Part shown: positions 1 through 12,380 of the stretch, one piece after another
How positions within the stretch are numbered: position 1 is the first letter of the stretch
Layout: each line of letters starts with the position of its first letter
Source: an uncultured Paracoccaceae bacterium
Lineage (GTDB): Bacteria; Pseudomonadota; Alphaproteobacteria; Rhodobacterales; Rhodobacteraceae
Direction of reading: 5' to 3'
Assembly: GCA_937927885.1 (NCBI GenBank)
Contig: CALEZJ010000206.1
Location: 1 to 12,380, forward strand
DNA: 12,380 nucleotides
Position numbers and translations under genes: made by a program
The notes under the pieces: generated by a model
Database searches by the model: none
What the model saw: the letters and a program-made list of their open reading frames with translations, nothing else
What the model was told of the DNA's origin: nothing

Positions 1-548
1 TGGCGATAGGTGTCCAGCGGGTTCAGGCCCAGACGCCCGATGTGGTAAAAGTCCAGCATCATCCCCAGGTTGGGTCGGTTGACCTCCGCGATGGTCGCCG
101 CAGCCTGGTCGGGGTGGGTCAGGTGGTAGCCGGGCACATCAAAGGGGTTGATCGGCTCGATCAGCAGCGCGATGCCCAGCGGCGCGGCCAGATCGCAGGC
201 CCAGCGCAGGTGCTCGCGAAAGATGGCCTCGTCCCCGCCCTTGCCTGCCATCACATGCACCATGGCGGTGTCCGTCGCGGCCGCATAATCGAGCGCCTCG
301 CGCGTGGCGGCGCGCGCTTTGTCCTGATCGGTGCGCGCGGCCAGCCCGAAACTGTCGCCCGGCCGCGTGTTCAGACTGAGCATCGGCACGCTCGCCGCCG
401 CCAGCGCCGCGCGGGTCGCAGCCGCCGGGGTGTCATAGGGCCAGTGGCATTCCACGGCAGCGAACCCTGCGGCCGCCGCGCGCGCGATGGACTGTGGCAG
501 GGGCAGATCGGCCCAGAGAAACCCCAGATTGGCCGAAAACCGGATCAC
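1..548 (-). CDS. Hydroxypyruvate isomerase-like TIM-barrel protein (3' end outside window)
   Basis: The visible 182 N-terminal residues look like the sugar phosphate isomerase/epimerase (AP-endonuclease-like TIM barrel) superfamily. Hyi-type members interconvert hydroxypyruvate and tartronate semialdehyde or related 2-keto sugars acids. The protein starts [11 protein letters not shown], has the strand VECHWPY near residue 33, and carries the Hyi-like block LIEPIN..D.PGY.L near residues 129-142, whose Glu (about 131) is a likely metal ligand. It continues with [12 protein letters not shown] near 163, whose Asp is a second likely ligand. The start is GTG at 548, overlapping the aroQ stop as GTGA, so translation is probably coupled. 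The C-terminal third, with the remaining metal ligands, lies beyond position 1. Because it is coupled to aroQ, a 3-dehydroshikimate dehydratase-like role in the same fold is an alternative, but the EPIN..D.PGY block favours the Hyi group. Family is fairly sure, substrate is not. Confidence 0.85.
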
Positions 549-979
549 GCCAGCAAATGCGCCATGTGCCGCACCGCCAGCGCGTAGCCATGCACGCCGA
601 ACCCCGCCATCACCGCATCGGCGCGGTGGCTGACATAGGAATGGTGGCGGAAGGACTCGCGTTTGTGCACCTGGCTGATATGCACCTCGATCACCGGACC
701 CTTGAACGTGTTCAGCGCATCGAGCACCGCGATCGAGGTATGGGTCAGCGCGGCCGGGTTGATGACGATGCCGGCAGCGGTTTCGCGCGCCTCATGGATC
801 CAGTCCACGATCTGCCCCTCCCAGTTCGACTGGCGCAGGACCGTTTCCAGCCCCAGTTCGGCACCCAGGGCGGCACAGTCGCGCGCCACGTCGTCGAGGG
901 TCACCGAACCATAGATCTCGGGCTCGCGGCGGCCCAGCAGGTTCAGGTTGGGGCCGTTCAGGATGTGGATTGTCTGCAT
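545..979 (-). CDS. aroQ: Type II 3-dehydroquinate dehydratase AroQ
   Basis: This 144-residue protein has the usual length for a type II dehydroquinase, the dodecameric cytosolic enzyme converting 3-dehydroquinate to 3-dehydroshikimate in the shikimate pathway or in quinate breakdown. The family blocks appear in order: [17 protein letters not shown] at 8-24 with catalytic Tyr23 and Arg18, [12 protein letters not shown] at 50-62, [10 protein letters not shown] at 73-82 with Asn74 and His80, and EVH(100)IS followed by RESFRHHS at 107-114. INPAALTH differs slightly from the common INPGAYTH. The ATG at 979 is preceded by AAAAGG at about 7 bases. A longer open frame runs upstream to 1444 but has no family similarity there and runs antisense to the DUF1800 gene. 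The stop overlaps the GTG start of the isomerase-like gene. That coupling leaves open whether this copy is biosynthetic or catabolic. Confidence 0.96.
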
Positions 980-1094
980 CGGATTGCCTTTTCGGGGGAC
1001 GGCGCATCCTAGCGCGCGGGTCCGGGGGGCGCCAGCCCGGCAAGGGTGCAGGAAACGTGATTTGGCGCGGGCGAGGGCTGGGGTAGGATGGCGC
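980..1094. promoter_or_regulatory. Divergent intergenic region between aroQ and the DUF1800 gene
   Basis: These 115 bases separate the divergent start codons and must hold promoters for both sides if both are transcribed from here. Candidates are weak. On the minus strand TAGGAT (1011-1006) could be a -10 box about 27 bases before the aroQ ATG, with only a poor TGGCGC at the -35 position. On the plus strand TTGGCG (1062-1067) and TAGGAT (1084-1089) are 16 bases apart, but the implied transcript would begin at or next to the ATG at 1095, giving a leaderless mRNA. The same TAGGA could instead serve as a weak ribosome site. No strong operator or riboswitch is visible. Confidence 0.3.
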
Positions 1095-2327: not shown

Positions 2328-2415
2328 CGCGACGCGCACCTGGGTCTACCGCGCGCCTTCGCTCCGTGCCGGGCTGGCGATGGTGCTGTCCAGTGCCGAA
2401 TTCCAGAGGAGATGA
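2275..2415 (+). pseudogene. Out-of-frame C-terminal tail of the DUF1800 gene
   Basis: Reading in the frame one base later than the upstream gene gives about 46 residues that look like the natural end of a DUF1800 protein: [19 protein letters not shown], then LRAGLAMVLSSAEFQRR and a TGA at 2413-2415. This frame has a stop at 2263-2265, so the switch must lie after that point. If one G in the GCCGGAAC stretch at 2272-2278 were removed, the upstream frame would read [15 protein letters not shown] and run straight into the tail. The TGA overlaps ATG 2412 and lies within a few bases of the preferred DUF1501 start, the spacing expected of an intact gene pair. This could be a real mutation or a sequencing or assembly error in a GC-rich stretch. 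No clear slippery sequence for programmed frameshifting is visible. Confidence 0.8.
2405..2411 (+). promoter_or_regulatory. Ribosome binding site deciding the DUF1501 start
   Basis: AGAGGAG lies 6 bases before ATG 2418 but directly abuts ATG 2412. Normal spacing is about 5-9 bases, so 2418 is the better start, giving a protein beginning MRRRDFL. ATG 2412 would add only Met-Arg and would keep the twin-arginine motif. Confidence 0.6.
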
Positions 2416-2417
2416 GG

Positions 2418-3572
2418 ATGCGGCGGCGCGATTTCCTGGCCGGGTCTTGCGCGGGGTTGCTGGCGACGCTGCCGCAGACCCGGTTGGCGCTGGCCCATGC
2501 CGCGACCGACCGGCGGCTGGTCGTGGTGGTGCTGCGCGGCGGGATGGACGGGCTGGCGGCGCTGGCACCCTGGGCCGATCCGGGACTGCGACGGCTGCGT
2601 CCCCGGCTGGCGCCGGGGCGCGCGGGGGTGATCGACCTCGACGGCTATTTCGGGCTGGATGCGGGGCTGCGCGGGTTGATGCCGCTCTGGCAGGCGGGTG
2701 AACTGGCGTTCCTGCCGGCGGCGACCACGCGCTACCGCGAACGCTCCCATGCCGAGGGGCAGGCGCTGCTGGAAAACGGCACCGCCAGCCCCGAGGGTGC
2801 GCGCGACGGCTGGCTGAACCGCGCGCTGCTGGCGCTCAACGACGGCGATGCGCGGCTGGGCCTGTCGCTGGGTCCGGCCGTGCCGCTGATCCTGCAGGGG
2901 GCGGCGACGGTTCAAAGCTGGTCGAACGATGGCCTGCCCGAACCGGGTGCCGATTTCCTGACCCGGCTGGGCCTGATCTATCGCCACGATGCCGCTTTTG
3001 CCGCCGCCTTCGAGGCCGCGCGGGGATCGGCCCGGCCCGATCCGGCGCTGTTGGCGGGCATCGACGACACGCTGTTTCTCGGCGCGCGGGTGGCCGGGTC
3101 CTTGCTGGCCCAGACGCAGGGGCCGCGCGTGGCGGTGATCGAAATGCAGGGCTGGGACACCCATATCAACCAGGGCGCGCGCCTCGAGGGGCAGTTCGGG
3201 CGGCTGACCGAGGCGTTGTTGACACTGCGCGCCGCGCTGGGGTCGGCTTGGGAGCAAAGCGCGGTTCTGGTGGTGTCCGAGTTCGGGCGCACGGCGGCCG
3301 AGAATGGCGCCGGGGGCACGGATCACGGAACTGGCGGGCTGGCGATGGTTCTGGGCGGGGCGCTGGGCGGCGGCAGACTCCTGGGCGACTGGCCGGGGCT
3401 GTCGACGGGGGCCTTGCACGAAGGCCGCGACCTTGCCGCGCCCAATGCATTGGAATCGCTCTTCAAGGCCGCGCTGATCGGGCATATGGGCCTTGCCCCG
3501 GCGCAGGTGGACGAATCCGTGTTCCCTGCGTCGGCGCACCTGGCGCCGGTGCCGGGTCTCTTCGGGATATGA
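2418..3572 (+). CDS. DUF1501 family protein with Tat signal peptide
   Basis: This 384-residue protein belongs to DUF1501, a group related to the alkaline phosphatase/sulfatase-like fold and usually exported; its reaction is not established. The N terminus RRRDFLAGS followed by a hydrophobic stretch and ALAHA (to about residue 28) is a clear twin-arginine export signal, so it probably folds in the cytoplasm and acts in the periplasm. Family blocks are VVVVLRGGMDGL (35-46), GWDTH (245-249), SEFGRT (287-292) and GTDHGTG (300-306). The Asp and His residues in the last three are candidate metal or catalytic ligands. The length is typical. It follows the DUF1800 gene almost without a gap, so the two are probably one transcript. 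The common pairing of these families suggests a joint role in an exported or cell-surface process, which remains an inference. Confidence 0.9.
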   Translation: MRRRDFLAGSCAGLLATLPQTRLALAHAATDRRLVVVVLRGGMDGLAALAPWADPGLRRLRPRLAPGRAGVIDLDGYFGLDAGLRGLMPLWQAGELAFLPAATTRYRERSHAEGQALLENGTASPEGARDGWLNRALLALNDGDARLGLSLGPAVPLILQGAATVQSWSNDGLPEPGADFLTRLGLIYRHDAAFAAAFEAARGSARPDPALLAGIDDTLFLGARVAGSLLAQTQGPRVAVIEMQGWDTHINQGARLEGQFGRLTEALLTLRAALGSAWEQSAVLVVSEFGRTAAENGAGGTDHGTGGLAMVLGGALGGGRLLGDWPGLSTGALHEGRDLAAPNALESLFKAALIGHMGLAPAQVDESVFPASAHLAPVPGLFGI

Positions 3573-3595: not shown

Positions 3596-4882
3596 CTAGG
3601 CGGTCGCCGAGGCCGGTGTCCTGACCCTCGCGCCGGGAGCGATGGTGGGCGGGGCCGCGTTCAAGGCCTCGATGGCGAAACCCGCCGCTGCCTTGTAGCC
3701 AGCCATGAAGGCCGCGCGTTCCTCCGGGGGAATGACGTCATCGATATGCGCGAATTCGCCGCCGCAACGCTCGTCGACCAGATTGAGCAGGCCAAAGGGC
3801 CCCGCACCCCGATTGCGCAGGATCAGGGCCGAAACCGGCCCGCAAAGGCGCGCATCATAGGCAGAAAGCGCGGCGCGGGTGGCGCCGTGTTCGACCATCA
3901 TCGCGCCCAGGATGCGGGCGTCGATCACCGCCTGGCTGGCGCCGTTCGATCCCGTGGGATACATCGCATGCGCGGCGTCACCCAGCAGGGCCACCGGCCC
4001 GTCGACCCAGGTCGGTACCGGGTCGCGGTCGATCATCGGGTTCTCGTAGGCCCCGCCCGCCCCGGCCAGAAGTGCGGGCACATCCAGCCAGTCATAGCGC
4101 CAGTCGGCGAAATGATGGGCGAAATCCTCGATGGCGACCTCGCGGAACCAGCCGGTGTTCTCGCGCCCTTCGGGGCTGTCATAGGTAACCTCGGCGATCC
4201 AGTTGATGTCAGCCAGACCCTCGGCATCCGGGTGGCTGATCGGATAGACCACCATCCGGTGCCGGTGCGTGCCCAGCCCGACAAAGGAACTGCCCGTGCG
4301 GATCGGCTTCGCGCGGGTCACCCCGCGCCACATCACCGCACCGCCCCAATGGATCGGCGGCTGCGTCGGATGCATGGTTGCGCGCACGGCCGAATGGATG
4401 CCGTCGGCGCCAATCAGCAGGCTGCCGCGCTCGGTGCTGCCATCCTCGAACAGCGCGGTGACCCCTTCGGCATCGTGGCGATAGCCGGTCACCCGCCGTC
4501 CGGTCTGCACCGCGCCCTGACCCAGCCGCTCCACGACCAGCCGGTAAAGCAGCATGTGGAACTGCCCGCGGTGGACAGCGTATTGCGGCCAGCGATAGCC
4601 CGCCTCCAGGCCGCGCACCTCGGAATAGACGTCATTGCCGTTCAGCCCGACGAGCGCCCATTCCAGCGCGGGCAGGCCGACCTGATCCAGCATGGCCGCA
4701 TCGATCCCCAGATCCGCCAGTTCGCGCACCGCGTTCGGTTGCAGGTTGATCCCCACGCCCAGCGGCTTGAGGCTGCGCACCGATTCGAACACCACGCAGG
4801 GCACGCCGATCTGGTGCAGCGTCAGCGCGGTCACGAGGCCACCGATGCCCCCCCCGGCGATCAGGACTCGGCTTTGGGTCAT
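3596..4882 (-). CDS. PhzS-like FAD-dependent monooxygenase
   Basis: This 428-residue protein is a class A flavoprotein monooxygenase, the NAD(P)H-dependent group that hydroxylates aromatic or heteroaromatic substrates. It has the Rossmann motif GGGIGG at 10-15, the ribose-binding Glu33 ending the second strand, the DG motif GADGIHS at 158-164, and the FAD motif GDAAHAMYPTGSNGASQA at 301-318. From memory, several blocks (PLGVGINLQP near 40-49, WPQYAVHRG near 98-106, MWRGVT at 184-189, NPMIDRDP.P.W near 281-292) strongly recall PhzS, which acts on 5-methylphenazine-1-carboxylate. No other phenazine gene is present, so only the subfamily is proposed. ATG 4882 has GGAGAG at 4 bases; in-frame codons further upstream look non-coding. 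It is the last gene of the cluster, 96 bases after the second P450, and may act on that enzyme's product. Confidence 0.92.
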   Translation of the reverse strand: MTQSRVLIAGGGIGGLVTALTLHQIGVPCVVFESVRSLKPLGVGINLQPNAVRELADLGIDAAMLDQVGLPALEWALVGLNGNDVYSEVRGLEAGYRWPQYAVHRGQFHMLLYRLVVERLGQGAVQTGRRVTGYRHDAEGVTALFEDGSTERGSLLIGADGIHSAVRATMHPTQPPIHWGGAVMWRGVTRAKPIRTGSSFVGLGTHRHRMVVYPISHPDAEGLADINWIAEVTYDSPEGRENTGWFREVAIEDFAHHFADWRYDWLDVPALLAGAGGAYENPMIDRDPVPTWVDGPVALLGDAAHAMYPTGSNGASQAVIDARILGAMMVEHGATRAALSAYDARLCGPVSALILRNRGAGPFGLLNLVDERCGGEFAHIDDVIPPEERAAFMAGYKAAAGFAIEALNAAPPTIAPGARVRTPASATA

Positions 4883-4935
4883 GGGGCTCTCCGCTGGGGT
4901 GTTCGGCGGCGTTCTGGCAAAGATTCGCGCGCGGG

Positions 4936-4980
4936 GCAAGCGGCTTGCAATCGCAGCAGGCCGGGGGGCGTCTCCGGCCT
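4936..4980 (-). other. Two hairpins between the second P450 gene and the monooxygenase gene
   Basis: In the 96-base gap, AGGCCGG and CCGGCCT (4958-4964 and 4974-4980) form a 7-bp stem with a 9-base loop that starts inside the P450 stop codon. Next, GCAAG and CTTGC (4936-4940, 4944-4948) form a 5-bp stem with a 3-base loop. Neither is followed by a T-run on the minus strand, so these are more likely mRNA-stabilising or partial termination structures than a full terminator. I see no promoter motif in the gap. Confidence 0.3.
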
Positions 4981-6154
4981 AGCGCGACAGCGCCAGCGGC
5001 ACCGCCAGCGGTCCGTATTCGGGCCAGCGTGTCATCTCGACCGGTCCGGTCAGCGTCAGGCGCCGGGTCTTTTGCGTCAGTTGCCGCAGGGTTTCCAGCA
5101 GAAGTTCGCGTGCCAGCGGCGCGCCCGGGCACATGTGCGGGCCCCGGCCAAAGGTCAGAAGGTCCGTCTCGCCCCGGTCCAGACGATAGCTGTCGGGATC
5201 GGGGAACACATCGCCGTCACGGTTGCCCGAGGTAAAGACGACGGCCAGCGCATCCCCGGCCTTGATCGTCCTGCCGCCCAGGTCCACGTCGTGGCGCGCG
5301 GTGCGCGCAAAACCGCGGTAGGGGGTGTAGAGGCGCAAAAGCTCTTCGAGCGCCAGCGGGGCCAGATCCGGGTTGGCGGTCAGTTCCGCGTGGTGCTCGG
5401 GATGGCGTGCCAGATGCACCGCCATCGAGCCGATGAAGGTCGTGGGCGCGATGATGCCGACCAGCAGGAACTGGCGAAGCGCGCCCAGGATCTTGTCATC
5501 GGGCAGCGCCTGACCGTCGACCCGCACCGCAAGAAGGTTCGAGACCGGGTCCAGATCGGGGTCCTGCGGAGAGGATTTGCGTTCCTCGATCAGCCGTGCG
5601 GCGATCTGATAGAGCGCATCCGACCGTTCCCGCAGCGTATCGAAATCCTGCCGTTGCAGGGCCATGTTGAATTCGGCCCCGACACGGCGAATCTCGTCGG
5701 CATCCTTCGGGGAAAGGCGAAAGAATTCGGCCAGCAGGGCGATGGGCAGGGTGAACGAGAAATCCGCGCAGATATCGCCCCCGCCCGCGGCGACGAAGGG
5801 GTCAAGATGCTCGGCCACCATGCGGGTGATGACAGGTTTCCAGGCCTCGATCCGGCGCGGCGACAGAAACCGCAGGATGGCGTTGCGGTAGGGGATGTTG
5901 CCGGGCGGGTCCAGGTGCAGCGGCGGGCGGCGCTGGGTGGTGGCGACCGGGGGCACGACGTTCTGCACCGTGGTGGTAAAGGTCTGCCAGTCGGTCAGCA
6001 CACGGGCGATGTCCTCGTGGCGGGTCACGGCCCAGAAGCCGCCCATCTCGTTGGCCCAGGCAACCGGGCAGCGGCCGCGCAATTCGGCGAAAAGGGCGTG
6101 CGGGCTGTCGAAATCCTCGACCTCGGGCACGATGAAATCTGCGGGATGGGTCAT
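4979..6154 (-). CDS. Cytochrome P450 (second of tandem pair), no I-helix acid/alcohol pair
   Basis: This 391-residue soluble bacterial P450 should bind heme through Cys342 and oxidise a small substrate, with electrons from a ferredoxin system not encoded here. The heme loop is FGRGPHMCPG at 335-344, the K-helix ExxR is EELLR with Glu271 and Arg274, and the C-helix keeps DPP..IPYR with Arg90. The I helix reads LLVGIIAPTTFIGS: aligned by spacing and flanking residues to P450cam (GGLDTVVNFL), the Asp-Thr pair is replaced by Ile235-Ala236, with Pro237 after it and Thr238-Thr239 shifted on. The start is ATG 6154, overlapping the stop of the preceding P450 as ATGA. It shares the segment DWQTFT.TVQ and the positions of ExxR and the heme Cys with its neighbour, so the two are paralogues. 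The P450cam-like subgroup is my best guess; the substrate is unknown. Confidence 0.93.
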   Translation of the reverse strand: MTHPADFIVPEVEDFDSPHALFAELRGRCPVAWANEMGGFWAVTRHEDIARVLTDWQTFTTTVQNVVPPVATTQRRPPLHLDPPGNIPYRNAILRFLSPRRIEAWKPVITRMVAEHLDPFVAAGGGDICADFSFTLPIALLAEFFRLSPKDADEIRRVGAEFNMALQRQDFDTLRERSDALYQIAARLIEERKSSPQDPDLDPVSNLLAVRVDGQALPDDKILGALRQFLLVGIIAPTTFIGSMAVHLARHPEHHAELTANPDLAPLALEELLRLYTPYRGFARTARHDVDLGGRTIKAGDALAVVFTSGNRDGDVFPDPDSYRLDRGETDLLTFGRGPHMCPGAPLARELLLETLRQLTQKTRRLTLTGPVEMTRWPEYGPLAVPLALSR

Positions 6155-7320
6155 GCGAAGCGCAGCTCCAGATGGGTGACACCGTGTTCGGTCCAGCGCG
6201 CCCAGCGGATGGTCTCGCCGCGCTGAAAAGGGGGCAGGTCGGCCAGCACGTCCAACGTGATGCGCGCCTGCAACTTTGCCACTGACTGGCCCAGACAGAC
6301 ATGCGGACCGATGCCGAAGGCCAGATGACGGTTCGGGCTGCGATCCTCGACAAAGCGCATCGGCTCGGGGAATACCGACGCATCGCGGTTGGCGCTGAGA
6401 AAGTTCAGCGCAACCGGGCAGCCCTGCGGGATGGTGACGCCCTGCATCCGCGTCTCGCGCGTCGCCACCCGCACCAGCGCCTGATTGGGCGAATAGCAGC
6501 GCAGCATTTCCTCGATCAGGGCGCGGCGGTCGACGGAACCCGCGCGCAGCCGCGCTTGCAGGTCGGGATCGCCCGCCAGATGCCAGGCCATCGAGCACAG
6601 GAAATTGCGCGGCACCACATGCCCGCCAATCAGCATCAGGCGCACCATGCCCGCGAGTTCCTCGAAGGAATAGGGCCCGCCTTCGGGGTCAAAGGCCATG
6701 AGACCGCTGACGATATCGGTCTCGGGGTCTCGCGGGGAGGCCTGACGGTCCTGAACCAGCGCCACCGCAAAGCCGTCGATGGCGCGGCTGATCTCGCCCG
6801 CGCGGGGCATGTCGCCTCCCTGCACGGCGGCGACATAATCATGGCCCAGCCGACCCAGTTCCTCGGCCTCGGCCAGATCCATTCCGGCGAGGATGCACAG
6901 GCTGCCGACGGTGAACGGGGCGGCAAAGCCCTCGCCGAATTCGGGCAGAGCGGCGGCGCGCAATCCCTCGGCCAGGCGGGCGGCAAGGGCGCGCATCGGC
7001 GCCTCGATCGCGCGGATGCGGTTTTCCTTGAAGAATCGGTTCAGCCCCTTGCGATAGCGGTCGCTTTCGGGGGGGTCCTTTTGCAGGGGCAGCCGCGGCA
7101 ACCCCTTGCGCGGCGAGGCGGGGATCACTGTCTGCACCGTGGCGGTGAAGGTCTGCCAGTCCTTCGAGGCCGTCACCACGTCGTCATAGGTGGTCAGCGT
7201 ATAGAACCCGCCCCAGTTCTGCGACCCCGCCACCGGGCAGCTTTCGCGCAGCCGAGCCAGCTCGCCCTGAAGATCGGTCAATGCCGCAGGCCCGACCGGG
7301 TCCCAATCCTGCGGGATCAT
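6151..7320 (-). CDS. Cytochrome P450 (first of tandem pair), no I-helix acid/alcohol pair
   Basis: This 389-residue soluble P450 has the heme loop FGIGPHVCLG at 335-344 with Cys342, ExxR in EEMLR (Glu271, Arg274), and a C-helix DPPESDRYR with Arg90. The I helix reads IGGHVVPRNFL. Against P450cam VGGLDTVVNFL it aligns without gaps and puts Val235-Val236 at the Asp251-Thr252 positions that normally deliver protons for O-O bond cleavage. The 35-residue distance from there to ExxR equals that in P450cam, which supports the alignment. ATG 7320 overlaps the dctM stop as ATGA, and the stop overlaps the next P450 start the same way, so the three are translated together. The open frame extends far upstream to 8637, but that part is antisense-like frame shadow of dctM. 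Coupling to a transporter suggests the imported compound or its derivative is the substrate. Confidence 0.93.
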   Translation of the reverse strand: MIPQDWDPVGPAALTDLQGELARLRESCPVAGSQNWGGFYTLTTYDDVVTASKDWQTFTATVQTVIPASPRKGLPRLPLQKDPPESDRYRKGLNRFFKENRIRAIEAPMRALAARLAEGLRAAALPEFGEGFAAPFTVGSLCILAGMDLAEAEELGRLGHDYVAAVQGGDMPRAGEISRAIDGFAVALVQDRQASPRDPETDIVSGLMAFDPEGGPYSFEELAGMVRLMLIGGHVVPRNFLCSMAWHLAGDPDLQARLRAGSVDRRALIEEMLRCYSPNQALVRVATRETRMQGVTIPQGCPVALNFLSANRDASVFPEPMRFVEDRSPNRHLAFGIGPHVCLGQSVAKLQARITLDVLADLPPFQRGETIRWARWTEHGVTHLELRFA

Positions 7321-8597
7321 TGATTGAACACCAGGTTCGGCAGCCATAGCGAGACCTCGGGGACATAGGTGACAAGGATCAGGAACCCGACCATCGCCAC
7401 GACAAAGGGGATGACGCCGCGGATCGCCTCGGAAAGCGGCGCCTTGGCTATCGAGGACAGCACGAAGAGATTGAGCCCTATCGGGGGTGTCAGGAAGGCG
7501 ATCTCCATGTTGACGATCAGCACGATGCCGAAATGGATCGGGTCGATCCCCATCGCGGGCAACAGCGGCAGCACGATCGGGGTCACGATCAGCAGCACCG
7601 CCACGGCATCGAGGAACATCCCCAGGATCAGCATGGCGAGGTTGATGGCCAGCAGGAATTGCCAGGGCTCCAGCCCCACGCCGGTCGCCCAGCGCACCAG
7701 CCGCGTGGGCACGCCCGAACCGGTGATCCAATGGGCGAAAAGCAGGGCGAACATCACGATGAAGGTCACGGCGCTTGCCGCCTTCATGGCCTCGGCGGTC
7801 ATGCCGAAGATGTCGCGCCAGCCGACCTCGCGGTAGACCAGAACGGCGATCAGCACCGACGAGATGGCCGCGACCCCGGCGGATTCGGTCACCGTCGCAT
7901 AGCCCGAATAGATGCCGACAAAGACCGAGATCGGGATGAAGAGCGCAGGCAGCGCGCGCAGGTTGCGGCGCAGGAACTCGGGCCCGGACACCCGCGTGCC
8001 GCTGGCATAATTGTGCTTGCGCGACAGGATCATCACCACGCCGGCAAGGATCATCGCCTGGATCAGCCCCGGGATCACCCCGGCCAGAAACAGCCTTGGC
8101 ACCGATTGTTCGGCGATCAGGCCGTAAAGGATCATGCCGAGCGAGGGCGGGATCAGGATGCCCAACGTGCCCGAGGCGCCGACCGTTCCCAGCGCAAAGG
8201 GCCTGTGATAGCCGCGCGCCACCATGGCCGGGATCAGGAAGGTGCCCATCGCCATGGCGGTGACCACCGACGACCCGGAAATCGCCGCGAACATCGTCGT
8301 GGCCAGCACGCAGACCAACCCCAGCCCGCCGCGGAAATGGCCGACCCAGGCCTCGGCCGCATCGATGATGATGCGTGCGATGCCGCCCCTCTGCATGAAG
8401 GTCGCGGCCATGACGAAGAATGGCACGGCCAGGAAGGTGGTCGAGTTGATCCCGGAGACCGAGGTCATCGCCGCATCCATCAGCGGGCGCCCCTCGAAGG
8501 CGAGCATGGTCAGCGCGGCCACGCCGAGCGCGACGAAGATCGGCGCGCCCAGTGCCATCAGCACCAGCATCCCGCCAAGGCCCAGGAGAGCGTCCAT
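7317..8597 (-). CDS. dctM: TRAP transporter large permease subunit DctM
   Basis: This 426-residue, strongly hydrophobic protein is the large permease of a TRAP transporter, which moves substrate across the inner membrane driven by a sodium or proton gradient. It has about a dozen membrane segments. Family blocks include FLAVPFFVMAATFMQRGGI at 55-73, the loop ISGSS near 106-110, IPAMVARGY at 122-130, GTLGILIPPS at 143-152, and FLTPPIGLNLFV at 368-379 in the second half. The length is normal. The chosen ATG 8597 shares one base with the dctQ stop (TGATG); upstream in-frame codons to 8705 are not family-like and overlap dctQ. The stop overlaps the start of the first P450. Close packing with dctQ, dctP and the enzymes indicates the transporter imports the pathway substrate. 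Confidence 0.97.
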   Translation of the reverse strand: MDALLGLGGMLVLMALGAPIFVALGVAALTMLAFEGRPLMDAAMTSVSGINSTTFLAVPFFVMAATFMQRGGIARIIIDAAEAWVGHFRGGLGLVCVLATTMFAAISGSSVVTAMAMGTFLIPAMVARGYHRPFALGTVGASGTLGILIPPSLGMILYGLIAEQSVPRLFLAGVIPGLIQAMILAGVVMILSRKHNYASGTRVSGPEFLRRNLRALPALFIPISVFVGIYSGYATVTESAGVAAISSVLIAVLVYREVGWRDIFGMTAEAMKAASAVTFIVMFALLFAHWITGSGVPTRLVRWATGVGLEPWQFLLAINLAMLILGMFLDAVAVLLIVTPIVLPLLPAMGIDPIHFGIVLIVNMEIAFLTPPIGLNLFVLSSIAKAPLSEAIRGVIPFVVAMVGFLILVTYVPEVSLWLPNLVFNQ

Positions 8598-9097
8598 CAA
8601 TGTCCCTTTCCGCTGGTGCCAAGGCCGCGACCCGCAAGGGCCAGCGCCAGCATCTTCAGCACCATCAGTCCCATGCCGATCGGCAGGGCGAGAAACAGCG
8701 ACCACGATTGCGGGGTGCGCAGCGAACTGCCCGACCGGTCATCCAGCATCTGCGAGAACAGGTAGGCCTCCCAGCCGAACCAGGCCATGGTCGCGCAAAA
8801 GAACAGGGTCAGCAGGCCGACACCGGTGGCAAGCATCCGGCGCTTTCGCGGCGAAAGGCCACCCAGCAGGATTTCGGTATTGATATGGCGCCCTTCGGCG
8901 GCCAGCACGCTGCCGGCCAGCACCGAGGCCCAGACGATGAAATAAAGCGCTACCTCATCGGCCCAGTCGATGGAGTTGCGCGGGCTGACATGGCGCAGCA
9001 CCGCACCGCCCAGAAAGGTGCCCAGCGCGCAGAGCACGAGAACGCCGATCACGGCAGTCTCGATCCGCGACCAGATCGCGAGGAGTCGGTCGAGCAT
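8597..9097 (-). CDS. dctQ: TRAP transporter small permease subunit DctQ
   Basis: This 166-residue protein is the small membrane subunit that partners DctM. Four hydrophobic segments are visible: about residues 15-34, 48-67, 89-108 and 130-155. The family signature lies around SIDWADEVALYFIVW (42-56) and AAEGRHINTEILL (66-78), matching the usual W.eE....fvW and HI..e pattern. ATG 9097 is preceded by GAGAGAC, a modest ribosome site, within a small direct repeat. It lies 60 bases after dctP, the only sizeable gap in the CoA-transferase-to-P450 run, and that gap carries a strong hairpin. DctQ and DctM are separate proteins here, not fused. Confidence 0.95.
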   Translation of the reverse strand: MLDRLLAIWSRIETAVIGVLVLCALGTFLGGAVLRHVSPRNSIDWADEVALYFIVWASVLAGSVLAAEGRHINTEILLGGLSPRKRRMLATGVGLLTLFFCATMAWFGWEAYLFSQMLDDRSGSSLRTPQSWSLFLALPIGMGLMVLKMLALALAGRGLGTSGKGH

Positions 9098-9098
9098 G

Positions 9099-9116
9099 GC
9101 TGTCTCTCGCTGTCTC
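9099..9116. repeat. Small direct repeat before dctQ
   Basis: On the minus strand GAGACAGC occurs twice, separated by GA, immediately before the dctQ ATG (copies at 9109-9116 and 9099-9106). The GAGAGAC between them is the likely ribosome site. It may simply be a local duplication in the leader. Confidence 0.4.
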
Positions 9117-9124
9117 GAAATGGG

Positions 9125-9147
9125 CGGGGGGCCAGGACGGCCCCCCG
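9125..9147 (-). promoter_or_regulatory. Strong hairpin between dctP and dctQ
   Basis: CGGGGGGCC (9125-9133) and GGCCCCCCG (9139-9147) form a perfect 9-bp all-G/C stem with a 5-base loop, 10 bases after the dctP stop. There is no T-run after it on the minus strand (next bases CCCATTTCGAG), so readthrough is expected. Hairpins at this place in solute-binding-protein operons commonly protect the upstream mRNA from 3' decay and let the binding protein be made in excess over the permease. That role is inferred here. Confidence 0.7.
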
Positions 9148-9157
9148 TCAGACCGGT

Positions 9158-10162
9158 TTATTGCGCTGCCAGCGCCGCTGCCACGCGCGCGACATAGTCG
9201 GCATCCATCCCCGAATCCGCAACGATCTGGGCCTGCAGTTCCAGCATCTGCGCGCGCATCTCGGCGACGGCCTCGGGCGAGGGGTCGGCATAGGTGATGC
9301 CATTGGCCTCGTTCAGCGCCCGTGCCCCGGCCAGTTCCTCGGCGGCATAGTCGCGCGCCCAGCCGACCACTTGCGCCCATGATCCCAGAACGGCGGCGCG
9401 CTGGGCCTCGGTCATGCGCGACAGCGACGCGGCGGACACCAGCGGAATATAGACCCCCCACCCCGCATTGTCGTTGAAGGCGTGGCGGATGCCCGCCTCC
9501 CACAGCCGACCGCCCGAAATGGTCAGGTCCGTGACCGAACCCAGCCCCGCGATCTGCCCCTGCGTCAGTTGCAGCACGATTTCCGTGCGCGGCGTGGCGA
9601 CGCCGTTGATGCCCATGGCCGACATGATCTGCACCACCACCGGGCTGGGCGGCGTGGCCAGCGTGCGGCCCTGCAGGTCGGCGTAGCTGGCTGCGGGTTG
9701 GGTGGTAAACGCGGTCTGGTTCGGTGCGAACTCGAAATGGCCGCCCTCGGGGATCACGATGCCGCGGCGTTCGACCATGGACCACAATTCGGTCCCCAGC
9801 GGGCCGTCCAGAATGGCGCGGATCGTGTCGCGGTCGGCGCCGAAGAACATTGGCAGGGTGATGACCGACAGGTTCGGTTCCAGCCGGCTGATGGTGGGCG
9901 AGGCCTGGATCGACAGGTCCAGAGCCCCCGAGGCCAGCGCCCGCACCGCGTCGGCGCTGTTGTAAAGCTGCCCGGCCGGGAAGACCTCGACGGTGATTTC
10001 ACCGCCCGAAGCCGCGCTTATCGCCTCGGCCCAGCGCTCGGCCGCCTGGTTGCGCACATGGCCGGGCGGGGTTTCCACCGACAGGCGCAGTTCCAGCGCC
10101 TCGGCGCCGGTCGTCATCATCAGCGCGCCGGCCAGCGCCAGACTCAGGGTCGTTCTCATCAT
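9158..10162 (-). CDS. dctP: TRAP transporter substrate-binding protein DctP, conserved Arg replaced
   Basis: This 334-residue protein is the periplasmic binding component. The N terminus MMRTT, a hydrophobic stretch and TTGAEALE give a Sec signal peptide with likely cleavage after about residue 22. Typical blocks are AAERWAEAI.AASGGEITVEVFPAGQL (40-66), ADAVRALASGALDLSI (70-85), ADLQGRTLATPPSPVV (161-176) and TEIVLQLTQGQIAGL (193-207). In most relatives the third block reads GLKIR.P, and its Arg makes the salt bridge to the substrate carboxylate; here that place is Ala169, while Arg166 sits three residues earlier. This suggests an altered binding mode or a ligand without the usual carboxylate. 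The start ATG 10162 has a strong GGAGGAGGAG about 5 bases upstream and overlaps the CoA-transferase stop as ATGA. A TTG at 10180 is possible but poorer. The family call is firm, the ligand unknown. Confidence 0.94.
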   Translation of the reverse strand: MMRTTLSLALAGALMMTTGAEALELRLSVETPPGHVRNQAAERWAEAISAASGGEITVEVFPAGQLYNSADAVRALASGALDLSIQASPTISRLEPNLSVITLPMFFGADRDTIRAILDGPLGTELWSMVERRGIVIPEGGHFEFAPNQTAFTTQPAASYADLQGRTLATPPSPVVVQIMSAMGINGVATPRTEIVLQLTQGQIAGLGSVTDLTISGGRLWEAGIRHAFNDNAGWGVYIPLVSAASLSRMTEAQRAAVLGSWAQVVGWARDYAAEELAGARALNEANGITYADPSPEAVAEMRAQMLELQAQIVADSGMDADYVARVAAALAAQ

Positions 10163-11301
10163 CGCGTCTCCTCCTCCCAAGGGGTTGCGTGTGGATCTTC
10201 GGGGCGCAGTGCCGGGGCAGGGCGGTCAGTGCCCGGCCCCCCCTGCGCGAAACGGTACCCGGCGTTCAGGATGCGCGCGCCATCTTGCAGCGTCAGCACC
10301 AGATCGCGCGTCGCCAGATGCGGCATCGCCAGCGCCTCGGCAGCAGACTGAACCCGGGCGGCGGGCACGCCCACGGCGCGAAACGCGGCCTCCCAGACGG
10401 CGGCGGCGCGGGTCTTGAGCACCTCGGCCATGCGCGCGGCCAGCGCATCGGCATGCACCGCGCGCGCGGCGCGGGTGGCAAAACGGGGGTCGTCCAGAGC
10501 GTCGGACAATCCCAGCACCGACAGCGTGGCCGCGACCTTGGCATCCTCGACCGCGCCCAGCGTGATGGCTCCGTCAAGGCAGGCGAAGGTGTCCGAGGTC
10601 GGCGCCCGCGAAAACCCCCGGCTGCCGGTGCGCGCCGGGGCCTCGCCGGTCATCAACAGCGGATTGACCACCGACAGCATCATCACCAGCGCCGCGTCCA
10701 GCATGGCGACGTCGATCTGTTGCCCTTCGACCAGCCCGCGCTCGCGCTGCAACAGCGCGGTCTGGATGGCAAAGGCTGCCAGAAGCCCGGTGAACGTGTC
10801 GACCAGCGGGAACCCCACGCGCAACGGCGGATCGCCGGGCAGGCCCGAGACCAGCATCATGCCCGACAGGCTTTGCACGATCTGGTCCATCGCCGCGACA
10901 TCCGCCAGGGGGCCCGACTGGCCAAAGCCGGAAATCGCGCACCAGATCAGGCGGGGGTATTTGGGCCGCATCGCTGCCGCTCCCAGCCCCAGCCGGTCCA
11001 TCACCCCGGGGCGGAAATTCTCGACCACCACATCGGCCCCGGCGATGATCGCCTCGGCCCGCGCACGCCCTTCCGGTGTCTTCAGGTTCAGCGAGATTGA
11101 TGTCTTGCCCGCGTTGATCCCCTGAAACGCCGGAGCCATGCCGCGCTCTTCGGCGTGCTGGGTGTAGTTGCGCAAGGGATCGCCCGTCGGGGGTTCGATC
11201 TTGACCACTTCGGCCCCGTTGAGCGCCAGGAAATGCGACGCCAGCGGTCCCGCGACCACATGGCTGAAATCCGCAACCCGGATGCCCTTCAGTGCCCGCA
11301 C
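10159..11301 (-). CDS. Family III CoA-transferase (CaiB/BaiF)
   Basis: This 380-residue protein is a class III CoA-transferase, which moves CoA between organic acids such as succinyl-CoA and the pathway acid. It begins with the family opening ALKGIRVADFSHVVAGPLAS, then GAEVVKIEPP.GDP.R (29-44), NAGKTSISLNLK (63-74), ADVVVENFRPGVMDRLGL (89-106), ISGFGQSGP (123-131) and AAMDQIVQSLSG (136-147), where Asp139 is the likely catalytic residue forming the anhydride. The GTG at 11301 is preferred: it places the protein start at the usual family position, with GGGGGGA just upstream. ATG codons at 11319, 11340 and 11349 are in frame but lack a ribosome site and would put a palindromic operator-like element inside the coding region. 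The stop overlaps the dctP start. Its place before the transporter suggests that it activates the imported acid. The acid cannot be deduced. Confidence 0.93.
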   Translation of the reverse strand: MRALKGIRVADFSHVVAGPLASHFLALNGAEVVKIEPPTGDPLRNYTQHAEERGMAPAFQGINAGKTSISLNLKTPEGRARAEAIIAGADVVVENFRPGVMDRLGLGAAAMRPKYPRLIWCAISGFGQSGPLADVAAMDQIVQSLSGMMLVSGLPGDPPLRVGFPLVDTFTGLLAAFAIQTALLQRERGLVEGQQIDVAMLDAALVMMLSVVNPLLMTGEAPARTGSRGFSRAPTSDTFACLDGAITLGAVEDAKVAATLSVLGLSDALDDPRFATRAARAVHADALAARMAEVLKTRAAAVWEAAFRAVGVPAARVQSAAEALAMPHLATRDLVLTLQDGARILNAGYRFAQGGPGTDRPAPALRPEDPHATPWEEETR

Positions 11302-11319
11302 GATTCCCCCCCGGCGCAT

Positions 11320-11340
11320 ATGGTTCACAGGATGAACCAT
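11320..11340. promoter_or_regulatory. Perfect inverted repeat, probable operator
   Basis: ATGGTTCA (11320-11327), spacer CAGGA, and TGAACCAT (11333-11340) form a perfect 8-bp dyad with a 5-base spacer. It lies 18 bases before the preferred GTG start of the CoA-transferase, in the only gap before this run of overlapping genes, and just downstream of a TTGACA hexamer. The size and symmetry fit a dimeric repressor. I cannot assign the regulator family, and no regulator gene is in the window. The arms could pair in RNA, but A/T content and position favour a DNA operator. Confidence 0.6.
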
Positions 11341-11356
11341 TACATGCATCTGTCAA
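11328..11356 (-). promoter_or_regulatory. Candidate internal promoter of the CoA-transferase/TRAP/P450 genes
   Basis: On the minus strand a perfect TTGACA (11356-11351) contains the TGA stop of the upstream dehydratase-family gene. Seventeen bases further, ATCCTG (11333-11328) is a poor -10 match lying in the centre of the inverted repeat. The implied start near 11321 leaves a leader of about 20 bases before the GTG. A repressor on the dyad would cover the -10 region. The weak -10 keeps confidence low. Confidence 0.4.
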
Positions 11357-12380
11357 CGACCTTTTTGCACCCGGTCGATCCCGGCCTGCACGGCAGCGCG
11401 GGCCGAGGCGCCATCCCAGGCGCGGGCGTCCACCATATCGGCGTCCACCATCACGCAGGCGACTCCGGCCTGTTCCAGCGCATGGGCAATGAAACGCGTG
11501 CCATAGCCCGAAGGGCGGTCGGTTTTCGGCACGATGATCACCGCAAGGTCGATGCGGTGGCGCCTTGCCTCCTTGACATGCCAGGCCCCGGCCCAGGGCG
11601 GCTGGTGGAGGTGCTCGTTCAGGTCGATCACCCGCGCGGCGAGGGCGCGCATCGGGTCGCCGTGGTCGGCACGCAGATACCCGTCGGCGGCAAAGGGCAG
11701 ATACATCGACCAGGCAAAGACCGCGCCCTGATCCTCGAAGGCGGAATAGAACCCGGTGTCGAACCACAGCCCCGCACCGATCCACATCATGCGGATGCGC
11801 TCGTCGGGGACCACGGCCACGCCATCGCGCACCCGAGCCGCCACCTCGTCACGAAAGGCGCGGGCATGGGCCAGTGCCCAGTCGCTGCCGCGGTGCCACT
11901 GCGGGATCATCACGTTGGGGATCATGTCGGCGATGCGCAGCGGCAGGCGTGGCGCCTCCGCGATGATCCGGGCCGCCTCGTCGAACAGGCGCTCTTGCGC
12001 GTCGATCCGCGCCATCAGCCTTTCCAGCGCCCCCTCGGGCGTGCGCCGCCCCGCCACCCGTTCGGCCAGTGTGGTCAGGTCGGCGATTTCCGACACCATC
12101 AGGTCCAGCCGGTCAGGGCCTGCCTCGCGCTCCCAGTCGTGGCGCAAGGGGGTCCACCAGTCCGGCGCGGGCGCGGGGTGGCCGGGGGCGGACAGGATGG
12201 CCAGCGGGGCCCCCGTCAGCCGCGCCCATTCGGCAAAGATCAGCGGGTGGTCATCAGCCGAGGCGCGCGCGACCAGAAGCCCGGGCGGCGGCAACCCGCC
12301 CCAGGGCTGGACCTCTGGCCGACCGTCGAGGGCGGCGAACAGCGGCAAGGCGCTGTATTTCGCCAGCCTGGCATGGAACC
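11353..12380 (-). CDS. 2-hydroxyacyl-CoA dehydratase (HgdB/BcrB-type) family protein, 5' end outside window
   Basis: The visible 341 residues resemble the D-component subunits of 2-hydroxyacyl-CoA dehydratases and benzoyl-CoA reductase BcrB/BcrC, which use a 4Fe-4S cluster to generate ketyl radicals. Supporting features are a LLVARASADDHPLIFAEWAR segment near the start (usual place of a Cys-Asp motif), IFAEWARLTGAP, the central RIRMMWIGAGLWFDTGFYSAFED region, and the C-terminal GYGTRFIAHALEQAGV..VMVDADMVDARAW, ending in a long helix. Only one cysteine is visible (in GVACVMVD, a buried-strand position), so the usual cluster ligands seem to be missing. The protein runs off the right edge: the frame is open to 12380 and the TTG at 12348 is not needed as a start. 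No activator ATPase (HgdC type) is in view; a second subunit may lie upstream. The family is likely, the function uncertain. Confidence 0.75.
   Translation of the reverse strand, partial: FHARLAKYSALPLFAALDGRPEVQPWGGLPPPGLLVARASADDHPLIFAEWARLTGAPLAILSAPGHPAPAPDWWTPLRHDWEREAGPDRLDLMVSEIADLTTLAERVAGRRTPEGALERLMARIDAQERLFDEAARIIAEAPRLPLRIADMIPNVMIPQWHRGSDWALAHARAFRDEVAARVRDGVAVVPDERIRMMWIGAGLWFDTGFYSAFEDQGAVFAWSMYLPFAADGYLRADHGDPMRALAARVIDLNEHLHQPPWAGAWHVKEARRHRIDLAVIIVPKTDRPSGYGTRFIAHALEQAGVACVMVDADMVDARAWDGASARAAVQAGIDRVQKGR

Follow-up and report, generated by a model that had tools for sequence, protein, structure and literature searches.

Gene content of the locus

Eight genes, all of which can be assigned to families by Pfam, occupy positions 3596-12380 on the minus strand of a 12,380-nucleotide stretch of DNA from an uncultured Paracoccaceae bacterium (GenBank assembly GCA_937927885.1, contig CALEZJ010000206.1; the stretch at its full length is hereafter called the window). 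The block joins a relative of the class I benzoyl-CoA reductases (BCR I) and 2-hydroxyacyl-CoA dehydratases (HAD) to a coenzyme A (CoA) transferase, a tripartite ATP-independent periplasmic (TRAP) transporter, two cytochromes P450 and a flavoprotein. The genes are:

11353-12378 (gene to 12380, the window edge, which cuts its 5' end), minus strand: HgdB-like protein, Pfam HGD-D (PF06050, 104.8 bits)
10159-11349, minus strand: family III (CaiB/FRC-like) CoA-transferase, CoA_transf_3 (PF02515, 359 bits)
9158-10162, minus strand: DctP, TRAP solute-binding protein (PF03480, 117 bits; NF037995 over its cut-off, TIGR00787 below its cut-off)
8597-9097, minus strand: DctQ, TRAP small permease (PF04290, 82 bits)
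7317-8597, minus strand: DctM, TRAP large permease (PF06808, 369 bits; TIGR00786 over its cut-off)
6151-7320, minus strand: P450-1 (PF00067, 75.9 bits), heme Cys and ExxR kept, acid-alcohol pair replaced (GGHVVP)
4979-6154, minus strand: P450-2 (PF00067, 61.7 bits), heme Cys and ExxR kept, acid-alcohol pair replaced (VGIIAP)
3596-4882, minus strand: class A flavoprotein monooxygenase, PhzS-like, accessory (FAD_binding_3, PF01494, 81 bits; NF005720, 577 bits)

The original prediction for this locus, made from the letters alone, described eight co-directional genes with four overlapping junctions, all of which are present in the coordinates: CoA-transferase/dctP, dctM/P450-1 and P450-1/P450-2 each overlap by 4 nt and dctQ/dctM by 1 nt. 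Profile matches cover all three components of a TRAP transporter (DctP, DctQ and DctM). The CoA-transferase has YfdE (4hl6) as its best solved relative and shares with family III enzymes such as YfdE and formyl-CoA transferase both PF02515 and an aspartate, which we take to be the catalytic Asp of the family; at this position the aligned cluster of the window protein has Asp in 79 of 81 sequences, with one Glu and one gap. Seven NCBIfam models matched the transferase, none reaching its cut-off.

Conservation of the gene set

The HgdB family was searched for in 84,980 species genomes; of the 227 stretches that matched, 203 encode relatives, and the best 80 of these 203 together with four plasmid loci form the set of 84 loci compared here. 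Clustering of their genes yielded three main layouts, namely the window type, a second type found in Rhodobacterales/Rhizobiales and a sphingomonad type that also occurs in Caulobacterales, Hyphomonadaceae and some Gammaproteobacteria. The second type comprises HgdA (a further HGD-D gene, see below), HgdB, several CoA-transferases and a different TRAP set; the sphingomonad type comprises HgdA, a mostly fused CoA-transferase, HgdB, TRAP genes, TonB receptors, CapA and hydrolases. In an unrooted tree of 85 HgdB rows, the window and 11 collinear loci form one group of 12 rows (support 100/99), which is joined by 29 second-type rows, including L011 (100/98); 43 sphingomonad-type rows form another group (100/99), with the long-branch row L004 outside. 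A family III CoA-transferase is encoded at all 85 HgdB loci compared.

Twelve of the 84 loci carry both P450s and were picked for detailed comparison on that basis; no locus among the 84 has just one of the two P450 groups. When searched by tblastn with the eight window proteins, all 12 contain the five other core genes (HgdB-like, CoA-transferase and DctP-Q-M), and 11 keep the window's gene order, with the transporter-P450 block inverted in L011. Conservation of the whole set, which the original prediction had proposed as a check, holds for the five other core genes (12/12) but not for the flavoprotein gene (3/12). The junctions are conserved as well: P450-1 and P450-2 overlap by ATGA in all 13 loci, the window counted, and the DctM/P450-1 overlap is ATGA in four of the eight relatives tested and CTGA in the other four, with four further relatives outside that test. 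Eight of the 11 collinear loci have a MarR-type gene (one group; Pfam basis from L007) that is oriented away from HgdA.

The flavoprotein is an accessory that lies outside the conserved unit and was added locally in some loci of the Pararhodobacter type. Its ATG start is 96 nt downstream of P450-2, and tblastn found it in only three P450-pair loci (L005, L006 and L007). The PhzS-like label given earlier does fit the family: 2rgj and 3c96 (271 bits; table label 'Flavin-containing monooxygenase'), presumably PhzS entries, are its best solved relatives, and NF005720, a model described as 'hypothetical protein', is matched at 577 bits against a cut-off of 400. In contrast to PhzS, this accessory protein has no phenazine gene beside it among the window genes identified. 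Downstream of P450-2, L005, L006 and L007 carry two tandem flavoprotein genes as opposed to one in the window, followed by a gene on the opposite strand, which Pfam identifies as MarR-like in L006.

Several further observations concern the surroundings of these genes. In the window, adjacent DUF1800 and DUF1501 genes (948-2327 and 2412-3572, plus strand) converge on the flavoprotein gene with 23 nt between the ends; beyond them lie a type II dehydroquinase AroQ gene (545-985, minus strand) and, overlapping it by 4 nt, a hydroxypyruvate/2-oxotetronate isomerase-like gene (3-548, minus strand) cut by the window edge. On plasmids, tblastn with P450-1 returned 219 records, every one below 60% identity, and tblastn with HgdB returned seven, six from sphingomonads and one from Rhizobium. 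Plasmid pNL2 of Novosphingobium aromaticivorans DSM 12444 (L093, L094) encodes a related P450 with 36% identity to P450-1, among neighbours encoding LacI, two MFS proteins, a TonB receptor, MmgE/PrpD, a hypothetical protein and CapA; the plasmid search gave no HgdB match on pNL2.

A P450 lineage with an altered I helix

Both P450s retain the heme cysteine and the ExxR motif (FGIGPHVCLG and EEMLR in P450-1; FGRGPHMCPG and EELLR in P450-2), with the heme Cys present in 13/13 members of each group. They share these features with CYP125-like and CYP107-like bacterial enzymes, which are among their best solved relatives, but differ from them in the I helix. The acid-alcohol pair of this helix, which is usual though not defining for P450s, is replaced in both: aligned to AGNETT of CYP125MRCA, P450-1 reads GGHVVP and P450-2 VGIIAP. 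Across the loci, both residues are absent from 13/13 P450-1 and 13/13 P450-2 proteins, all 13 members of the P450-2 cluster share its motif, and a proline mostly lies one place beyond the replaced pair. A related third group of 13 lacks both residues in 11 members, with one too short and the L037 member having Thr at the alcohol position and Gly at the acid position. The motif could be read in 109 of 120 listed P450-1 homologues (the 11 unread include the most distant, P0119 and P0120), and in all 109 the acid is replaced by Val, Ile, Leu, Met or Thr (the last in eight) and the alcohol by Val or Ala. A control scan for P450s covered seven of the genomes compared; 30 of its 62 matches were considered, and 27 of these loci yielded sequence, 29 proteins in total (none from L113, L116 or L117). 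Five of these belong to the present lineage and have neither acid nor alcohol; the other P450s of the same genomes have the acid in 24/24 and the complete pair in 22/24.

Set against these controls, the loss of both residues makes it a serious possibility, if somewhat short of an even chance, that the P450s are peroxygenases or catalyze non-hydroxylating reactions such as coupling, dehydration or isomerisation. P450s without the acid-alcohol pair include CYP152-type peroxygenases, and the window offers no redox partner gene between its genes. On the other hand, hydroxylases without the alcohol exist, for example CYP107A1 (6-deoxyerythronolide B hydroxylase), which aligns at the pair position with Glu-Ala, and redox partners may be encoded elsewhere. 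Such chemistry would bear on a single step and is compatible with the catabolic route proposed below.

Fold and catalytic residues of the HgdB-like protein

The window holds the C-terminal 341 residues of the HgdB-like protein, which are 100% identical to the full-length homologue P0121 (417 residues). A Foldseek search with the predicted model of P0121 (predicted local distance difference test score, pLDDT, 83.3) returned BzdO as the best match (E 7e-17, template modelling (TM) score about 0.8); the first nine matches, among them BzdO, MbdO and the alpha subunit of 2-hydroxyisocaproyl-CoA dehydratase, have TM scores near 0.8, and 20/20 PDB matches at E <= 0.001 are BCR, HAD or double-cubane cluster proteins (DCCP). 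As judged from sequence and model, the protein has the HGD-D fold of BCR I/HAD enzymes and resembles their active-site subunit.

In the relatives a second gene of the HGD-D family, HgdA, directly precedes HgdB, a position that falls beyond the window edge. It is present in 12/12 P450-pair loci, nine by gene calls (including L011 of the second-type group) and L005, L006 and L037 by tblastn, and called coordinates overlap those of HgdB by 4 nt in L007, L008, L009 and L043. Pfam matches HGD-D in HgdA of L010, L065 and L086 and not in that of L007; the model of the L007 protein (pLDDT 88.5) has 16/16 PDB matches at E <= 0.001 to BCR, HAD or DCCP, and its 17 top-ranked matches all belong to these families. 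A profile comparison of HgdA with HgdB aligned 304 columns (E 3e-4, probability 40%). The relatives thus have two homologous subunits, the window sequence ending before HgdA, and HgdA and HgdB would pair as a heterodimer. The class I benzoyl-CoA reductase BzdNO is likewise built from two homologous HGD-D subunits (PDB 8s02; PMC11971306), with HgdB modelling onto BzdO and HgdA onto BzdN.

The residues on which BzdNO depends are largely replaced. Its catalytic [4Fe-4S] cluster is bound by Cys95, Cys128 and Cys380, and Glu65 and His131 are its acid-base residues (PMC11971306). Profile alignments place the three cysteines of BzdO at Ala82, Ala117 and Asp363 of P0121 and His131 at His120. Glu65 corresponds to Gln53, a placement made via MbdO and the dehydratase, with the BzdO alignment itself beginning after Glu65; by residue count, BzdO is one residue longer in this region. 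In the window's clade and the second type, taken together (42 rows), the three ligand positions are devoid of Cys and instead hold Ala (22) or Pro (20), Ser (24), Ala (17) or Gly (1), and Asp (42). The Glu65 position is Gln in 40/42 (one row has Thr, and the window row is cut before it) and in all 43 sphingomonad-type rows; the His120 position is His in 36/42 (Gln in five, Ala in one) and in 0/43 of the sphingomonad type. The cysteines are also missing from a further branch (L004, L086, L090 and L091), where the three residues are Pro, Ser/Gly and Asp. In HgdA, Cys fills no column in as many as half of 61 rows, the highest count being 27/60. The ATP-dependent activase of known family members was surveyed with TIGR00241 in 15 genomes with the HgdB family, other than those of L007 and the window: 14 of the 15 gave no match over the cut-off, G007 giving a weak one below it.

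The three Cys ligands, the catalytic Glu and the activase, by which BCR I/HAD enzymes are recognized, hence do not mark the window-type proteins. Because the cluster cysteines and catalytic Glu are replaced and most genomes surveyed have no activase over the cut-off, HgdB should not work like the known dehydratases and reductases. An ordinary HgdAB dehydratase was considered and judged unlikely, the ligand and Glu positions being replaced. The name HgdB-like, as originally applied, is borne out for family and fold but not for the chemistry it implies; that account also missed the second HGD-D subunit outside the window and the loss of the acid-alcohol pair in the P450s.

With known catalytic features lost and a CoA-transferase at all 85 loci, HgdA and HgdB could instead be a non-catalytic acyl-CoA carrier or a regulatory partner of the CoA-transferase, leaving the chemistry to the P450s and general beta-oxidation. 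This is unlikely, as motifs such as PQWHRGS, MWIGAG and WSMY are strongly conserved over distant groups, in the manner of an active site.

Co-occurrence of the P450 lineage and HgdB

The association between the P450s and HgdB was also examined in genome samples of three families, named here after the known genome at the centre of each sample. In the family of G002 (L006, Pararhodobacter marinus; 295 genomes; thresholds E <= 1e-50 for P450-1 and E <= 1e-30 for HgdB), P450-1 relatives occur in eight genomes and HgdB in 13, and all eight are shared. In the Devosia family (G009; 136 genomes) the corresponding numbers are five and eight, with 5/5 shared, and in the Novosphingobium family (G014; 249 genomes), queried with P450-2 at E <= 1e-60, they are 13 and 19, with 10 shared. 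Since only the top few candidates of each genome were scored, an absence carries less weight than a presence. The hypergeometric values, 1e-12, 2e-7 and 1e-10 respectively, are too small given shared ancestry.

The modules also coexist where they are physically apart. P450-1 and HgdB are 70 kb apart in G111 and deep within two different large contigs in G174; in G172 they are on two short contigs, and their distance cannot be told. In these genomes one site carries DctP-DctQ-DctM-P450-1, joined by P450-2 in G174 and by a MarR gene in both G111 and G174; at a second site, HgdA-HgdB lies close to a CoA-transferase. The transporter and P450-1 are also together in the stretches L085, L087 and L089, beyond the 12 P450-pair loci. 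The original prediction would have fallen had the P450s and the transporter not occurred together in related genomes; they do so, and the P450 lineage in turn co-occurs with HgdB, also where the modules lie apart, in keeping with the single dedicated route that was proposed. That the modules are separable and the flavoprotein is not conserved might suggest two or three unrelated operons that are adjacent by chance. This is very improbable, given that gene order and ATGA junctions are conserved and that the modules co-occur even when apart.

A proposed two-module catabolic route

The block is best read, with a probability of about 0.6, as a catabolic unit of two separable modules, the first importing and oxidizing an organic acid and the second activating it with CoA and processing it with a cluster-free HgdAB. 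Module 1 would consist of DctP-DctQ-DctM-P450-1, usually with P450-2, in which the TRAP transporter imports an organic acid that is then oxidized by the translationally coupled P450 pair; the imported acid probably meets the P450s first, since the transporter-P450 gene junctions suggest so. Module 2 would consist of the CoA-transferase, HgdA and HgdB. Here the family III transferase would place CoA on the acid, and the HgdA/HgdB heterodimer, which appears to keep the BCR I/HAD fold with the iron-sulfur ligands gone, would act on the resulting CoA ester. With no clusters, and no activase in most of the genomes tested, radical dehydration or ring reduction should be unavailable. Acid-base chemistry is therefore the most likely remaining use of the conserved active-site channel, and the reaction would most likely be one that tolerates oxygen, such as the addition or removal of water, an isomerisation or a lyase step. 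HgdB is also found without such a P450, which makes module 2 the broader core, with the P450 module feeding into it. The presence of P450s and the lifestyles of these bacteria point to an aerobic setting.

A number of observations weigh against this reading. The two modules are not obligate partners, as both P450-only and HgdB-only genomes occur: G468, G472 and G550 of the Novosphingobium family have the P450 lineage without an HgdB match, and, at the thresholds applied, the P450 was not matched in 5/13, 3/8 and 9/19 of the HgdB genomes in the Pararhodobacter, Devosia and Novosphingobium families, respectively. Some of the counted relatives are remote, with the HgdB proteins of G111 and G172 at 42-44% identity and, in the Devosia family, a close P450-1 only in G414 (55%), the other four being at 32-34%; the genomes are also related to one another, and the hypergeometric values thus overstate their independence. 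The window lacks a ferredoxin or reductase gene for the P450s between its genes. In a second transferase group, from other layouts, Gly occupies the catalytic Asp position in 25/67 sequences. Finally, sphingomonad-type HgdB has Cys at the first two cluster-ligand positions in 43/43 rows each (the third holds Asn in 40, Ser in two and His in one), making a metal site or cluster role of its own possible in that branch, and one window-type genome, G011 (L037), has an activase gene over the cut-off, located on another contig.

Two of these subjects come with further observations. The transferases with Gly belong to second-type group 1, of which L024 11282-12469 is an example. At several loci of this type the group 1 enzyme is directly followed by additional transferases in which the Asp is retained, and the two perhaps form heteromeric pairs. 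The sphingomonad-type HgdB proteins (L001-L003 and L044-L084 except L046) have five cysteines in 43/43, arranged as C-x2-C-x5-C ... C-x-C, of which two occupy the known ligand positions and three lie elsewhere. As to whether these were kept or regained, the tree is unrooted, and the branch of L086, L090, L091 and L004 is also without them.

The sphingomonad-type cysteines and the activase-like gene of G011 are also what could be expected if HgdA and HgdB were a working, oxygen-tolerant dehydratase or ring reductase, with a cluster or metal held by non-Cys ligands and served by an unlinked activase. FldA-FldBC, the CoA-transferase-linked phenyllactate dehydratase type, provides a model for this arrangement, and the shared fold, the constant association with a family III CoA-transferase and the many invariant His, Asp and Trp residues are consistent with it. 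It is nevertheless decidedly unlikely: all 42 window-clade and second-type rows have non-Cys residues (Ala/Pro, Ser/Ala/Gly and Asp) at the ligand positions, Gln stands for the catalytic Glu in both branches, no Cys column of HgdA is widely conserved, and 14 of 15 genomes gave no activase over the cut-off. The two-module catabolic unit is thus retained as the preferred reading, and the dedicated route for one imported compound that was originally suggested is partly supported.

Attempts to name the substrate were set aside. DctP similarity was dropped, its solved relatives being weak (best 83 bits) and uninformative, and neighbouring genes were dropped for want of a common theme across loci: sphingomonad-type loci are flanked by TonB receptors, CapA, S15/CocE and other alpha/beta-hydrolases, and other loci by MR_MLE, DHDPS, MmgE-like, alcohol dehydrogenase or oligopeptide ABC genes. 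A lead towards abscisic acid catabolism found nothing on this process in bacteria among the literature matches listed. The cyclic, terpenoid or aromatic acid originally suggested is a candidate that the findings neither bear out nor contradict. Two HgdA-HgdB pairs have neighbours of a sugar-acid type, MR_MLE and alcohol dehydrogenase in L004 (16153-24470) and DHDPS and an epimerase in L086 (10974-12701), hinting that the same core may act on other substrates.

Relation to known systems and significance

BzdNO is a close point of comparison in architecture, down to the His131 equivalent of most window-clade and second-type rows, but the window-type HgdB has Ala/Ala/Asp for Cys95/128/380 and Gln for Glu65, HgdA lacks widely conserved cysteines, an activase was found in only 1/15 genomes and P450 genes lie within the block. 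(R)-2-hydroxyisocaproyl-CoA dehydratase (3o3m) shares its fold with the HgdB model, and FldABC-type dehydratases share the combination of a family III CoA-transferase with an HgdAB-type pair; the window-type set differs from both in adding a TRAP transporter and P450s and in lacking cluster ligands. The nearest described combination found is a putative polycyclic aromatic hydrocarbon (PAH) cluster of Sagittula sp. MA-2 (Roseobacteraceae), which encodes a TRAP transporter together with an acyl-CoA transferase and a P450 (PMC11705938). This cluster differs in its TAXI-type TRAP system with a fused permease and in its ring-cleavage genes, and the main text of that report names no HGD-D gene as a dehydratase (PMC11705938). 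Among the literature matches listed (open-licence papers, by titles and abstract starts), there was none on the present cluster or on a cluster-free member of the family, in agreement with the original prediction, which knew of no described pathway with this combination. The gene set is real, conserved and, as far as searched, undescribed.

Taken further, the findings raise the tentative idea, rather less than evenly probable, that a branch of the BCR/HAD family lost its iron-sulfur chemistry and was rebuilt as a new oxygen-tolerant acyl-CoA enzyme that works, in Proteobacteria, with a P450 lineage likewise deprived of its usual residues for oxygen activation, giving an undescribed aerobic pathway with a pair of unusual catalysts. 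Enzymes of the BCR I/HAD family perform very low-potential cluster chemistry and are sensitive to oxygen. In the published account of BCR/HAD evolution, double-cubane proteins gave rise to benzoyl-CoA reductase, the dehydratases and TudS, each with at least one cluster (PMC11971306). A pair without cluster ligands would extend this series to zero clusters, and asks what the scaffold does without iron. Homologues go under '2-hydroxyacyl-CoA dehydratase' and 'benzoyl-CoA reductase subunit B', names that may mislead; an answer would annotate a widespread gene set, represented by the 203 relative-encoding stretches among the species genomes scanned. The P450 lineage, for its part, lends itself to testing how oxygen is activated when the acid-alcohol pair is missing.

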